From IMG/VR virus record IMGVR_UViG_3300034012_000235, positions 1 to 58,209 of that record: a stretch of 58,209 nt of DNA. The stretch is one strand, 5' to 3'. Shown one piece after another: positions 5,133 through 24,528 of this stretch. Below the pieces are notes generated by a model that was not told the origin of the DNA, ran no database searches, and was given only the letters and a program-made list of their open reading frames with translations. Source of the stretch: a virus. Both the position numbers and the translations under genes were made by a program. Position 1 is the first letter of the stretch. Every line of letters starts with the position of its first letter.

Positions 5133-6407
5133 TCAGGTAAGCCCGTTGCCAGAGATGATCCAGCTTGTGCTGGTTACTTTGATTGCCGTCGCTATACCGT
5201 AAGCTGCCAGCGTTCTACTGCCAGTTGTGCCTACGCCCGCGAGGTACATCGTATCTGTGGTGATAGCGATGGTCACGGTGTTGATCATGTTGACGAACGT
5301 GATCGTGGTGCCCACTGGAAACGCCACCGAGCCGTTGGCTGGGATCGTGAACGTGCGGGCGTTGTTGTCCGTAATCGGGTGAACAATCGAATCCCCTGCG
5401 TCACCTGCTACCAGTGTGTAATTGGCGCTCTGCGAGTTTTGGGGCATCCCGGTGTAGCCCACCGAGTCCACCACGTTGGTCGCAGGAACCACAGACCCAC
5501 CAAATGTCTGCGTTCCAGTAAAGGTCTGCGCCGCATCCGTCCGGGCAATCGTTGCGCTCGTTGTCGGGAACGTCATCGTTGTCGAATCAGTTCCGCTCAG
5601 CGTCAGGGTGTTGTTAAGCGTAAACGTCTTGCCGTCAGCAATCGTGACTGTTGCACTCGTTGCCGGTGCGGTAAACGCAACCTTGTTGATGCTGGTGGCA
5701 GTAGCCACGCCAAGTGACGGTGTGGTCAGGCTTGGACTTGTTGCGAATACCAGCGATCCAGAACCCGTCTCGTCCGTCACCGCCGCCGCAAGGTTTGCCG
5801 AACTTGGCGTTCCAAGGAAAGTGGCGACTCCAGTACCTAGACCAGAAATTCCTGTGCTGACTGGCAAAGCTGTTGCGTTTGTCAGATCGCCAGATGATGG
5901 CGTACCCAAAGCTCCGCCATTGACAACAAACGCACCGGCAGTCCCCGTATTGACTCCAAGGGCAGTTACTACACCAGTACCCGTCGTGACCGTTGACGGA
6001 GCCGCTCCAGCGCCGCCGCCAACTACAAGAGCATTTGCAGCCAATGCAGCAGAACTTGTGATCGCAGAAGTGCTGCTGAAGTACGGAACACCGCCAGAAG
6101 TCCCAGAGGCGAGTCCAGTACCACCTTGAGCGACTGTGACAGTAGCCGCCTGCTTGATCAGCTTGCCAGTAACTCCGTCAAATGCAGCCAAGTTGTTGTT
6201 TGTCGCAGAAGCAGGGCCTACAACATCCCCGTTTGCGCCTGCTTTACTCGCAATAACTTGAACAACACCGCCGCTGTCCTTGTAAAACAGCTTGCCATCA
6301 GCGGTGTTAATTGCAAGCTCACCCGCGGCTAAGTTGCCTGCAATTGGCGCAGCACTTGCCGTAGAAGAGTTGTAAAGCTGAATCGGGGTGTATCCAGTTT
6401 GTGCCAT
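5133..6407 (-). CDS. Tail fibre protein, repetitive Gly/Thr/Ala-rich
   Basis: This 424-residue protein opens with AAGELAINTADGKLFYKD, a motif found near the start of many phage fibre proteins where the attachment region meets the shaft. Low-complexity Ser/Thr/Ala/Gly repeats follow (AQGGTGLASGTSG and LTTPSLGVATATS types), giving a probable beta-rich shaft. The last 100 residues form a distinct domain. The gene abuts its neighbours with no gap on the upstream side and 2 bp on the downstream side, making a three-gene fibre module. Confidence 0.8.
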   Translation of the reverse strand: MAQTGYTPIQLYNSSTASAAPIAGNLAAGELAINTADGKLFYKDSGGVVQVIASKAGANGDVVGPASATNNNLAAFDGVTGKLIKQAATVTVAQGGTGLASGTSGGVPYFSSTSAITSSAALAANALVVGGGAGAAPSTVTTGTGVVTALGVNTGTAGAFVVNGGALGTPSSGDLTNATALPVSTGISGLGTGVATFLGTPSSANLAAAVTDETGSGSLVFATSPSLTTPSLGVATATSINKVAFTAPATSATVTIADGKTFTLNNTLTLSGTDSTTMTFPTTSATIARTDAAQTFTGTQTFGGSVVPATNVVDSVGYTGMPQNSQSANYTLVAGDAGDSIVHPITDNNARTFTIPANGSVAFPVGTTITFVNMINTVTIAITTDTMYLAGVGTTGSRTLAAYGIATAIKVTSTSWIISGNGLT

Positions 6408-21772: not shown

Positions 21773-22009
21773 TTAACCCCTGCCTATCTCTTTAAGCAAA
21801 CGAGGACCAGCCGTGTAATGGAAGCGCCAAGACTTGGTTGCAGGATCTCTCTTGCGGGTTCTGACAACCCATCCCTTCTCCTGCGCATACTGCAACGTCC
21901 TCCTGACGCTGCCAGGATCCATACCCCACTTCAACCCTATGTCATGGTTCGTTAGCTCTTCTTCAGGGTTGACCGCAAAGAACACACACAGCGGAGTAAC
22001 TATGCTCAA
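21773..22009 (-). CDS. Winged-helix DNA-binding protein
   Basis: This protein of up to 78 residues has a winged-helix pattern: helix EEELTNHDIGLKWGMD, recognition helix PGSVRRTLQYAQEKGW, and a wing VVRTRKRDPATKSWRFHYTAG. It probably binds DNA as a regulator or terminase accessory. Its start is uncertain: the only listed start is TTG at 22,009 with a weak ribosome site, while the frame is open back to the TAG of the upstream gene at 22,043. A start at another codon, or amber read-through from the upstream gene, is possible. Confidence 0.68.
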   Translation of the reverse strand: MSIVTPLCVFFAVNPEEELTNHDIGLKWGMDPGSVRRTLQYAQEKGWVVRTRKRDPATKSWRFHYTAGPRLLKEIGRG

Positions 22010-22042: not shown

Positions 22043-22351
22043 CTATGCCAGAAGGATTGACTGCAAGTGCTGGCGCTCAGCTTCACCCAAGTCTTTGATG
22101 GTCGGATCTTGGCCGTTTAAGAACCGCACAGCAACCTTGGCGTACTTCTTCGCCTTCTTGCCCTTCTTGTGCGTCATGGCCTCTTGAAGCTGCCTGCCCT
22201 GACTTTCAGTGATCAGCCGACCCTTGTTCTCAACATACCAACCAGACTTTAGCGGATACGCTATCCCAAGAATCTTGGCCTCAACCCTCGTCAACGAAAC
22301 AATGCCGTTGAGCCGCTGATACTTTGCTTGTAGGTACTCGCCGACTGTCAT
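22043..22351 (-). CDS. Hypothetical basic protein, 102 aa
   Basis: This 102-residue protein opens MTVGEYLQAKYQRLNGIVSL, has a Lys-rich centre (THKKGKKAKKYAKVAVRF) and a helical end. It could be a small helix-rich DNA- or RNA-binding protein; no family recognised. It is the first gene after the 390-bp leader region and lies in the same frame as the following winged-helix gene, separated by a single TAG. Confidence 0.65.
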   Translation of the reverse strand: MTVGEYLQAKYQRLNGIVSLTRVEAKILGIAYPLKSGWYVENKGRLITESQGRQLQEAMTHKKGKKAKKYAKVAVRFLNGQDPTIKDLGEAERQHLQSILLA

Positions 22352-22740
22352 CTCTATCTCAATAACTACTTAGTAGTTCTCCACCGAATACCACTTAGCT
22401 ACTTCTCTTCAACACCCAAGCGGTTCCGAACGGCCCTCCCCTTTCCTCGCCTAGACGAGGTTCGGTTCAGGCTTACCCAGTGCGGACACGGTAGACCCTT
22501 GACAGCCGTTCGGGTCATGGACGCTATCTACCCCATCCATCTGCGCGGTGTTGCAGACCCTAATCCCACCAGTACCGCTTCTCACTCAGGACGCTGACGA
22601 TGCCGGTAGGCCTGTCCATCACTGAGCCAGTCAGAGCAGAAACGACAAAGCCCTAGAGTGGCCACCCGGTGGAACCCCTCTCGGGGCAGAGAGGGCGGAT
22701 GGTCGCTCTAGGGCTCTTAGTCGGGTTCCACACCAACAGG
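22352..22740 (-). ncRNA. Candidate structured leader or noncoding RNA
   Basis: This is the only gene-free stretch above 300 bases. A near-consensus promoter lies just upstream, and the RNA can form several helices. A 16-bp stem (22,649-22,664 with 22,700-22,715, two G-U pairs) encloses a 7-bp hairpin (22,676-22,682 with 22,689-22,695). A 7-bp pairing (22,669-22,675 with 22,725-22,731) would make a pseudoknot. A perfect 9-bp long-range pairing (22,426-22,434 with 22,505-22,513) encloses hairpin 22,445-22,460, and hairpin 22,540-22,557 lies outside it. It may be a stand-alone RNA or the leader of the head operon. No known family was recognised. Confidence 0.6.
22364..22378. promoter_or_regulatory. 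Perfect 7+1+7 palindrome, candidate operator
   Basis: AACTACT-T-AGTAGTT is a perfect inverted repeat 13 bp before the start codon of the 102-residue gene. A related half, ACTTAGCTACTT, lies about 15 bp further upstream. It could be an operator (for example for the nearby winged-helix protein) or a small hairpin in the leader controlling translation. Confidence 0.5.
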
Positions 22741-22743
22741 GAC

Positions 22744-22773
22744 AGTATAGGCACTGAGCCCTGCAGGTGTCAA
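22744..22773 (-). promoter_or_regulatory. Strong sigma70-type promoter upstream of the structured leader
   Basis: On the leftward strand TTGACA (22,773-22,768) and TATACT (22,749-22,744) are separated by 18 bases. This is the closest match to consensus found in the window, placed just after the stop of the small secreted-protein gene. Transcription would begin near 22,737, run through the structured region and enter the head genes, so it is a candidate late promoter. Confidence 0.72.
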
Positions 22774-22777
22774 GCGG

Positions 22778-22969
22778 TCAAATCATGTAGGGGCAATACT
22801 CAGTGAACAGTTGCTGCACGCAGTTGCGCTGTGAGTCGCAGTACACGCCCAGCCAGCGCACCCCGTTCATGGTGTTGACCATGTTGCAGGACCTCAACGA
22901 CATGAACGCCAGCGCAGGGCCAGACGCCAACAGCGCCACCAGGATCACAGGCACATAGAACTTCTTCAT
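22778..22969 (-). CDS. Small secreted Cys-containing protein
   Basis: This 63-residue protein has a clear signal peptide (MKKFYVPVILVALLASGPALA) followed by a mature part of about 42 residues with four Cys (SCNM, YCDS, NCVQ, YCPY), allowing two disulfides. It should be exported to the periplasm. It sits alone between terL and the leader promoter. A periplasmic role such as superinfection exclusion or wall interference is possible but not shown. Confidence 0.65.
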   Translation of the reverse strand: MKKFYVPVILVALLASGPALAFMSLRSCNMVNTMNGVRWLGVYCDSQRNCVQQLFTEYCPYMI

Positions 22970-22979
22970 CTCATTCTCC

Positions 22980-23168
22980 TTAACACGGTTGGTGATGTAC
23001 CCATACTTCGTTGCCAGTTTCTGGGCACTTAAAGTCTAACCTAGGAAAGCACCAACACAAAGGGGACATCACATGCCCCTCTCCCAAGAAGTGCGTCCTG
23101 ACAACAGGCTCACTCGGAATATGGGTTGGTTCTTCTTTGTCTGCCAGTGTCTGCATAGTCTTCTTCAT
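22980..23168 (-). CDS. Small CxC/HH-motif phage protein
   Basis: A 62-residue protein results if it starts at ATG 23,168; in-frame ATGs at 23,177 and 23,156 are alternatives, and it overlaps the terL end out of frame by about 60 bp. The C-terminal half has LCWCFPRLDFKC, then VWVHHQPC, a Cys/His pattern seen in many tiny phage proteins of unknown function and compatible with metal binding. The start is not certain. Confidence 0.6.
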   Translation of the reverse strand: MKKTMQTLADKEEPTHIPSEPVVRTHFLGEGHVMSPLCWCFPRLDFKCPETGNEVWVHHQPC

Positions 23169-24528
23169 CCCAGTCATCTCTCGGTGGCGGATCAACCTCA
23201 AGCCAGCCAGCGTCACGCAAGAACCGCAGGGCCTGCGTGGCAGAGTCAACGAAGTCATCGTGCGTTGTCTCAGGGAAGCTGCAGATCTGACTGACGAACC
23301 CTTCAGCCCAATCCCTGACGTAGCCCTTCCTCTGGGATGACTCAGGTATCCACACCCGGCCGCGGCTGATGATGTTGCTGACGATGTTCAGGCGCTGCAG
23401 CTTGTCAGCCTTGCCGGGGTTATACGCCCTCACAGGCAGATGCGCTCTCTGCAGGTCTTGGATCAGAGAAATGCCTGCGGACTTGTCCTCGATGAGTATG
23501 AGATCCACGCGCTTCTTCTCTTTGCCCTCACCGAAGATCGTCTCGTACTCGTCGATAACCTTCGGTCGCAGGTCGGGATACTGCATCCTCTCCTGCCAGC
23601 AATCAATAAGCATCGCAGACATAGGCCCGTCAAGTGGCTTAAAGACTCCCCAGGTCGTACAGGCAGTTGGGTCATTCTGTGTCTTCTCGCTGGTGGCGCA
23701 GTCGTAGGACTGTACGATGTACTCGAACTTCGGGAAGGCCTTGCCATCAGGCCACAGCTTGAACATGCTGCGCTGCACAATGCCACCCTCTTCAGGGTCA
23801 ATGATCTCAGCATGGATCTCCTGCCTGCCCAGCTTCGTCCCCTCGTACTGCAGGATCTGCTTCTGGAAGGACGGCGCTAGGTTCGCCAGATTGGCGTAGG
23901 TGCTGGCAGTCGTCAGGGCTACATCATCACCCTCACGCCCCACCAGTTCAACGATCAGGTCCTTCGGCCGCGGGGTGGTGGTGGCGACGATGCGGGTTCT
24001 GGTTCCCAGGCGGACGGAGAACTGGATCTGGTCCCAGGCTTCCTGCAGGTACTCCCAGGCAGCAAGCTCATCCAGCCATGCCCCATGGAACTGCGGACCC
24101 CGGAAGCGCTCAGGCTCAGACGCCGGAATCCCCTTAATAAGTGAGCCGTTGGTCAGCTTGAGTTCGTGGTGCTGCTTGTTGTAGTCAGCAATCAGCGGGG
24201 CAGGAATGACGTTCAGAAGGCCGCTATCGCCCTCGAAGCACGTAGCCTTGACGTCAGCACTGGTCGGCGCTCCAACGAGCCAGCGTGTCCCTGGCTCAGT
24301 CCAGGCCCACCAACCTACCTGCTCAGCGGCCGTCCGCGTCTTGCCTGCACCGCGTCCAGCTAGAAGCAGCCAGATCGTCCACCAGTCGCCCGGAGGTGGC
24401 ATCTGGTGCTTGTGTGCCTTCTCGATCCAGTTAGCCCTCCAGAGGTACGCTAGACGCTTCTCAGGGGGTAGTGTCTTGAGAGCCTGCAGGACGTCAGGCT
24501 GCTGGAAGGCCGTGGCTAGATCACTCAC
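23110..24528 (-). CDS. terL: Terminase large subunit
   Basis: This 472-residue DNA-packaging ATPase and nuclease has Walker A LLLAGRGAGKTRTAAE (about 54-69), Walker B with catalytic Glu in GAWLDELAAWE (about 151-161) and a coupling motif in RIVATTTPRPKDL. The RNase H-like nuclease acidic residues sit in QSYDCATSEK, DLILIEDKSAG and THDDFVDSATQAL. The length and motifs fit terminases of the HK97/GTA-like group. It docks on the portal and packages DNA into proheads. The start overlaps terS by 8 bp. Confidence 0.95.
   Translation of the reverse strand: MSDLATAFQQPDVLQALKTLPPEKRLAYLWRANWIEKAHKHQMPPPGDWWTIWLLLAGRGAGKTRTAAEQVGWWAWTEPGTRWLVGAPTSADVKATCFEGDSGLLNVIPAPLIADYNKQHHELKLTNGSLIKGIPASEPERFRGPQFHGAWLDELAAWEYLQEAWDQIQFSVRLGTRTRIVATTTPRPKDLIVELVGREGDDVALTTASTYANLANLAPSFQKQILQYEGTKLGRQEIHAEIIDPEEGGIVQRSMFKLWPDGKAFPKFEYIVQSYDCATSEKTQNDPTACTTWGVFKPLDGPMSAMLIDCWQERMQYPDLRPKVIDEYETIFGEGKEKKRVDLILIEDKSAGISLIQDLQRAHLPVRAYNPGKADKLQRLNIVSNIISRGRVWIPESSQRKGYVRDWAEGFVSQICSFPETTHDDFVDSATQALRFLRDAGWLEVDPPPRDDWDEEDYADTGRQRRTNPYSE

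Follow-up and report, generated by a model that had tools for sequence, protein, structure and literature searches.

The gene-free gap at positions 22352-22773, read on the leftward strand, appears to encode two adjacent RNAs, an uncatalogued RNA of about 100 nt and, behind it, a divergent member of the orphan Rfam family Betaproteobacteria-1. The first was named kissing-loop terminator RNA (KLT) in this analysis. The window, by which we mean the whole stretch of 58,209 nucleotides that was analysed, comes from a freshwater phage and is probably a complete genome, as judged from its 67-bp direct terminal repeat. The gap is probably an accessory, exchangeable cassette of noncoding RNA with its own promoter, in which KLT would be a terminator-ended small RNA and the second RNA would be made by read-through or by late transcription. 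This reading draws on sequence evidence of several kinds, namely the fold, the kissing helix, the position of the promoter, the U tract, the identity of the second RNA as RF02932, the exchange of modules, and empty sites in relatives. A preliminary description of the gap, which had proposed a put-like leader of the late genes, a riboswitch-like leader, or an independent noncoding RNA, was partly supported.

The gene for the terminase large subunit (TerL; 23110-24528, minus strand; PHROG 38, 2e-30) lies upstream of the gap on the same strand, with a 63-aa ORF (22778-22969) between the two. Leftward, the gap is followed by a 102-aa ORF (22043-22351, minus strand) without a match in either Pfam or PHROG, and then by the genes for a 1123-aa protein and the portal. 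The 102-aa ORF goes with the cassette and is absent together with the RNA in relatives with an empty site. A 78-aa ORF (21773-22009) between the cassette and the 1123-aa gene has a borderline MarR_2 winged-helix match and is conserved in the empty-site relatives. The claim that the gap is free of genes was borne out, as no start-to-stop ORF of at least 60 aa was found in 22352-22777; one plus-strand frame is open for 81 codons from stop to stop and holds no such ORF. A conserved protein frame across the gap, named earlier as an observation that would count against an RNA, was looked for and not found. The gap begins with a sigma-70 promoter, TTGACA-18-TATACT (22744-22773, minus strand), that matches the consensus at 11 of 12 positions. 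It had been called the best promoter in the window, but it shares that rank with TTGACA-18-TATAAC at 47695-47666 on the same strand, which also has 11 of 12 matches, lies inside a 9-kb gene (3022 aa), and is probably a chance match.

KLT occupies 22635-22737 on the minus strand, scores 115.9 bits with covariance model R1 and 77 bits with R2, and has a putative 5' end at 22737. The P1 hairpin (22720-22737; stem 22737-22733 with 22724-22720) is followed by a long hairpin (22647-22717) in which P2 (22717-22696 with 22668-22647) encloses P3 (22695-22689 with 22682-22676) and its loop UGCCCC. The P1 loop holds the strand GUGGAAC (22731-22725), which pairs with GUUCCAC (22669-22675), a 7-nt bulge on the 3' side of the long hairpin; all of these elements are on the minus strand. 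This pairing had been described as a possible pseudoknot to the 5' end; since the loop of a small hairpin supplies its 5' strand, kissing interaction is the better term. The fold has a z-score of -4.9, with none of 200 shuffled sequences as stable, and this together with the covariation described below indicates that the stem of the 16-bp class, the inner 7-bp hairpin, and the 7-bp long-range pairing noted earlier are real.

Homologous loci were gathered via TerL and portal. Alignment of the gaps showed a shared 5' module of about 100 nt with different DNA behind it, and model R1 then found this module in many more relatives. Among nine sequences the kissing pairs are formed in all nine and two-sided changes occur in five of the seven pairs. 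In an alignment of 33 distinct copies, built by sequence without fitting to the tested pairs, two-sided changes are found in all seven kissing pairs and in eight of nine pairs of the outer P2, with 95.2% and 99.3% of cells paired, respectively, where cells count sequences rather than independent events. Shuffling lowers the covariation score from 0.654 to a mean of 0.203, and sliding the partner strand by one column takes it below 0.1. The kissing helix, P2, and P3 covary in both the 9 and the 33 distinct sequences, with 0 of 500 shuffles scoring as high. P1 is paired in 98.8% of the cells of alignment A4, where pair 5-14 varies among GC, CG, and UA, and divergent KLT copies keep the hairpin with a different sequence. 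The length of the 5' strand of P2 is constant in 33 of 33 copies. The preliminary description had held that a lack of compensatory changes in homologous leaders would speak against it; such changes are plentiful. It had also pointed to a perfect 9-bp pairing of 22505-22513 with 22426-22434, which is there in the window sequence but found no comparative support, the 3' partner being absent in all four homologues from other loci that reach that far (alignment A5).

KLT gave no Rfam match at the gathering score in the window or the scanned loci, and its near-matches to Rfam microRNA families, far below the cut-off, were set aside as hairpin noise. The order of the strands also raised the possibility of an HDV-like ribozyme topology, which we rejected, in our own judgement, since P3 is too long and neither cleavage-site nor catalytic-core features were seen. 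On comparative grounds KLT would be an RNA family new to the catalogues; it occurs in more than 100 phage contigs, and its covariation, that of a tertiary contact included, is unusually strong.

The two ends of KLT carry signals of their own. Of 55 distinct homologues, 48 match the -10 consensus at the promoter offset in at least four of six positions and 22 in at least five, a value of 5 being reached at 0.7% of random positions. In 40 of these 55 copies the -10-like hexamer stops 6-7 nt short of the first G of P1, and the 5' end of the RNA is therefore very probably the transcription start. At the other end, the long hairpin is followed by a terminator-like U-rich tract (UUUGUCGUUUCU; 22638-22649, minus strand). 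All 67 KLT copies have at least five T in eight after the stem, so that a stable hairpin leads directly into a U tract as in intrinsic terminators, and an uninterrupted run of at least six T is present in 45 of the 67 (0.6% at random). The tract of the window is interrupted (UUUGUCGUUUC) and, at TTTGTCGTTTC, represents the weak end of the KLT range; termination there may therefore be weak.

The strongest rival to our reading makes KLT a regulated attenuator. Closure of the terminator would then depend on the kissing contact, which a factor, ligand, or ribosome might promote or prevent, and the second RNA and the ORF would be controlled accordingly. KLT would form the beginning of the transcript. 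Where the contig extends far enough, a gene-free module almost always comes next, within 10-25 nt and with no obvious promoter of its own; this would be odd if KLT were a separate small RNA only. L018 and L083 have an ORF immediately behind KLT, as would suit a leader. As the kissing partner is also transcribed earlier than the 3' arm of the terminator, the contact might affect closure. Against this, conservation covers the kissing helix as well as the complete terminator stem, and the two can coexist, whereas the alternatives in usual attenuators are mutually exclusive, and the downstream genes are so different that no common signal is evident. We therefore regard attenuation as somewhat unlikely; a riboswitch-like leader is conceivable as well.

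By analogy with phi29 packaging RNA and with GOLLD and ROOL, the kissing contact could instead form between molecules, giving KLT dimers or rings. Within each copy the loop is almost always complementary to the bulge, which fits pairing in cis as well as in trans with a molecule of the same type, and oligomerisation is possible because the sequence signal is the same for both. The constant length of P2 and the position of a phage RNA beside the terminase gene, which recalls phi29 packaging RNA, would suit such assemblies, and the cages of GOLLD and ROOL do form via kissing loops (PMC12286853). Nevertheless, an intramolecular fold is geometrically possible, and the element is missing from many close relatives, which argues against an essential packaging RNA; we consider the intermolecular arrangement unlikely.

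The second RNA of the cassette was identified by comparison with Rfam, a check proposed in the preliminary description, which had been made without tools and had overlooked the match. Scanning of the whole window returned a single match, to RF02932 (22497-22627, minus strand; 63.8 bits against a gathering score of 49.4, covering the full model 1-120), and no match to known riboswitch classes. The cut-off is also passed by five relatives, three of them near 100 bits. The window copy forms a divergent subtype with L246, L306, L316, L322, and L325, and its structure is kept through compensatory changes, with two-sided changes in 12 of 30 predicted pairs in the subtype alignment A5 and in 11 of 21 in A6. 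It resembles RF02932 in matching the full model above the cut-off with its helices kept; it differs from many members, which score 92-110 bits, and has an RNA-like extension beyond the 120-nt Rfam model. This 3' extension (22389-22496, minus strand) is partly alignable with other members of the subtype, and no consensus structure was found in A5 beyond about alignment column 144. A literature search by family name and by the accession RF02932 found nothing in the papers covered.

Betaproteobacteria-1 is widespread in phages; a pattern made for the family matched 103 stretches in viral contigs and 35 in betaproteobacterial genomes. All 35 genome matches carry Betaproteobacteria titles, mostly Burkholderiales, and in Acidovorax phage AP1 the RNA is unannotated and directly follows the primase gene, so the family as a whole is found in Betaproteobacteria and their phages. 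Putative hosts are read off this distribution of the family. AP1 is an isolate, and the stretch of it that was searched has the Betaproteobacteria-1 part without KLT. The ORF just upstream of the RNA falls into one cluster at 55 of 141 loci; by sequence this cluster reads as a TOPRIM primase, in line with the primase annotation in AP1. Among Burkholderiales, 3 of 200 genomes (centre included) have the RNA, a sporadic occurrence such as is expected for mobile DNA. Some Burkholderiales genomes have two or more copies (L212 and L214; L191 and L223; L197 and L202), a number of them identical, with identical flanks. KLT lies upstream of Betaproteobacteria-1 in about 44 of the 103 viral contigs, two of them at a distance of about 0.4 kb. 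Betaproteobacteria-1 thus stands behind KLT in the window group, unlike the bacterial-genome copies, which were found without KLT in front (0 of 35).

Other RNAs may take the place of Betaproteobacteria-1. In a sample of 65 viral contigs, picked with a pattern drawn from one KLT subtype alone, the module behind KLT was D in 25, G in 11, Betaproteobacteria-1 in 7, F in 5, and E in 3; most of the 14 unassigned contigs have their next ORF about 390-810 nt away, and in two the contig ends too early to tell. Since many of the loci are short metagenomic contigs, the numbers of neighbours are minimum values. Among the modules scanned against Rfam, none matched except Betaproteobacteria-1. Folding energy was set aside as evidence for the downstream modules, as their z-scores average -0.5, the same as control DNA, and their structure therefore rests on covariation, seen for RF02932 and, weakly, for module D. 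That module is closed by a long-range stem and shows two-sided changes in six pairs, which is weaker evidence than for KLT. Module F (GTCAGGGCGCGTTAGCTAATG...ACCCAAGAAACACCG), which is recurrent and conserved, occurs behind KLT or behind an ORF (L083:1400-1640, L151, L157, L161, L336), the podovirus record MW202484.1 being among the cases, without an Rfam match. A strongly conserved gene-free stretch of several hundred bases (GACCGGACTCCATCCGTTAGCAAGTGGTTGTATCGCC...) lies downstream of KLT in several large phage contigs (L343, L345, L348, L364, L365, L383, L390, L392); no Rfam match was obtained in the copies scanned, and it may be a large undescribed RNA.

The protein-coding cargo also varies, and includes an HNH endonuclease (L004/L005), a PAPS-reductase-like protein, and small proteins without a match. 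The proteins at L004:7932-8579 and L013:3353-3598 have a common C-terminus (LPLGP..EHIRSIVGGR) and different N-terminal parts, while the 102-aa ORF of the window resembles the L013 protein in its middle, and the cargo ORFs look mosaic. Similar-looking small proteins (~AHxWxGxDTxC...) without a Pfam match lie right behind different RNA modules (L002:2921, L070:3633, L125:4644).

Comparison of close relatives points to an accessory element. Relatives with 98% identical TerL (L011/L012, L014) have an empty site (...CCCTGTTGA|TAGACTTGCCGCC...) where promoter and RNA are both missing, and in L006 the whole cassette is inserted between the same flanks. The full record of L012 (= G001) was searched and has no KLT copy elsewhere. 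By model R2, 17 of 26 large relative records are without KLT, and confident copies never number more than one per record. The cassette boundaries look like insertion sites, and one version carries the HNH endonuclease, as might be expected of a protein-coding or DNA-level element that does not act as RNA. Such an element is extremely improbable, given the lack of a conserved frame in the gap, covariation that preserves base pairs with G-U included, and a promoter and U tract that both follow one strand.

KLT is found in other phages in different gene contexts. In MW202545.1, a distant relative of the window phage, five tRNAs are followed by KLT and then by Betaproteobacteria-1. Two annotated hypothetical proteins overlap the Betaproteobacteria-1 RNA of this record (5652-6109; L335) and are probably not genes. 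An association with tRNA islands, as for GOLLD and ROOL, was rejected, with tRNA genes near 4 of 125 KLT loci and 5 of 136 controls. A phage protein partner was likewise sought, and 8 carriers could not be told from 11 non-carriers by any gene family, the best differences being small or due to antisense frames. No KLT was found at the 35 bacterial loci of Betaproteobacteria-1 noted above or, under strict filters and in a search without a positive control, in 150 Burkholderiales genomes, and bacterial chromosomes were set aside as a location. This absence, together with the abundance in viral contigs, suggests that the carriers are lytic phages.

The preliminary description had named, as one of its options, a put-like leader through which some 45 kb of late genes would be read. 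A leader of the put or lambda 6S type, a promoter-proximal RNA that makes polymerase resistant to terminators for the late operon, is suggested by the strong promoter, by the pair of neighbouring stem-loops that comes right after it and is joined by a tertiary contact, and by a terminator-like tract about 100 nt on, as at lambda pR'. The comparison of relatives makes it very unlikely. Transcription of the late genes need not start at the gap, as TerL and other genes precede it on the same strand, and close relatives have the same late-gene order without KLT; an element missing from them cannot be their late-gene switch. A 6S or Q-dependent leader would be found at the late operon start across the phage group, whereas most of the large relatives counted above have no copy and other phages carry KLT elsewhere, as behind the tRNA cluster of MW202545.1. 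Every copy also has the terminator-like U tract, and HK022 put is about 70 nt long and described without a terminator of its own (PMC9378689). The cassette is thus better seen, on this evidence, as an accessory RNA gene than as a late-gene switch, and the suggestion of an independent noncoding RNA is supported by the empty sites, the varied contexts, and the U tract in every copy.

Under the preferred explanation of an accessory, exchangeable cassette, RNA polymerase would start at about 22737 and produce a compact RNA of about 95-100 nt in which the loop of the 5' hairpin is paired with the bulge of the long hairpin. The long hairpin and U tract would act as an intrinsic terminator, with most transcripts released as small RNA, and the Betaproteobacteria-1 RNA and 102-aa ORF would be made by read-through or by late transcription from the terminase gene. 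KLT and Betaproteobacteria-1 would then be separate products, and both may act in trans, either by themselves or together with a host factor. More tentatively, KLT might found a new RNA class in lytic freshwater phages of Betaproteobacteria. It would be a promoter-linked kissing-loop terminator that forms assemblies with exchangeable large orphan RNAs or controls them, and of these RNAs Betaproteobacteria-1 alone is already described; the kissing contact would in that case gate read-through or join molecules into an oligomer. With KLT, the orphan family Betaproteobacteria-1 gains a phage home and a frequent partner. As one 5' element stands before several undescribed RNA modules, experiments on KLT could open the function of all of them, and the compensatory signal is so strong that the kissing contact lends itself to a direct test with mutants that break and then restore it.

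Several known systems resemble KLT in part. The packaging RNA of phi29 is a phage RNA with loop-based kissing contacts; no common sequence with KLT was shown, and KLT is dispensable among close relatives. HK022 put, a two-stem RNA with a tertiary contact at early promoters (PMC9378689), resembles KLT in having two such stem-loops near a promoter. KLT differs from it in its length of about 100 nt, in the terminator-like tract at its end, and in being accessory and without a tie to early operons, since rather than near PL or PR it lies between the terminase and head genes in the window and in varied places elsewhere. An antiterminator of the HK022 put kind works in cis, suppressing termination via the beta' zinc-binding domain. 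GOLLD and ROOL are phage RNAs that build large assemblies or cages via kissing loops, and like KLT they are structured phage RNAs with a kissing contact and no assigned function (PMC12286853). Their sequence and fold differ from those of KLT, as do their length of several hundred nt and their enrichment near tRNA genes, and their Rfam models gave no match at the gathering score in the window or scanned loci. Lastly, KLT is like intrinsic terminators and terminator-ended small RNAs in having a GC-rich hairpin and then a U tract about 100 nt from a sigma-70 promoter, and it is unlike them in that a conserved bulge of the hairpin kisses the loop of a 5' hairpin and that an exchangeable second RNA lies at once behind.
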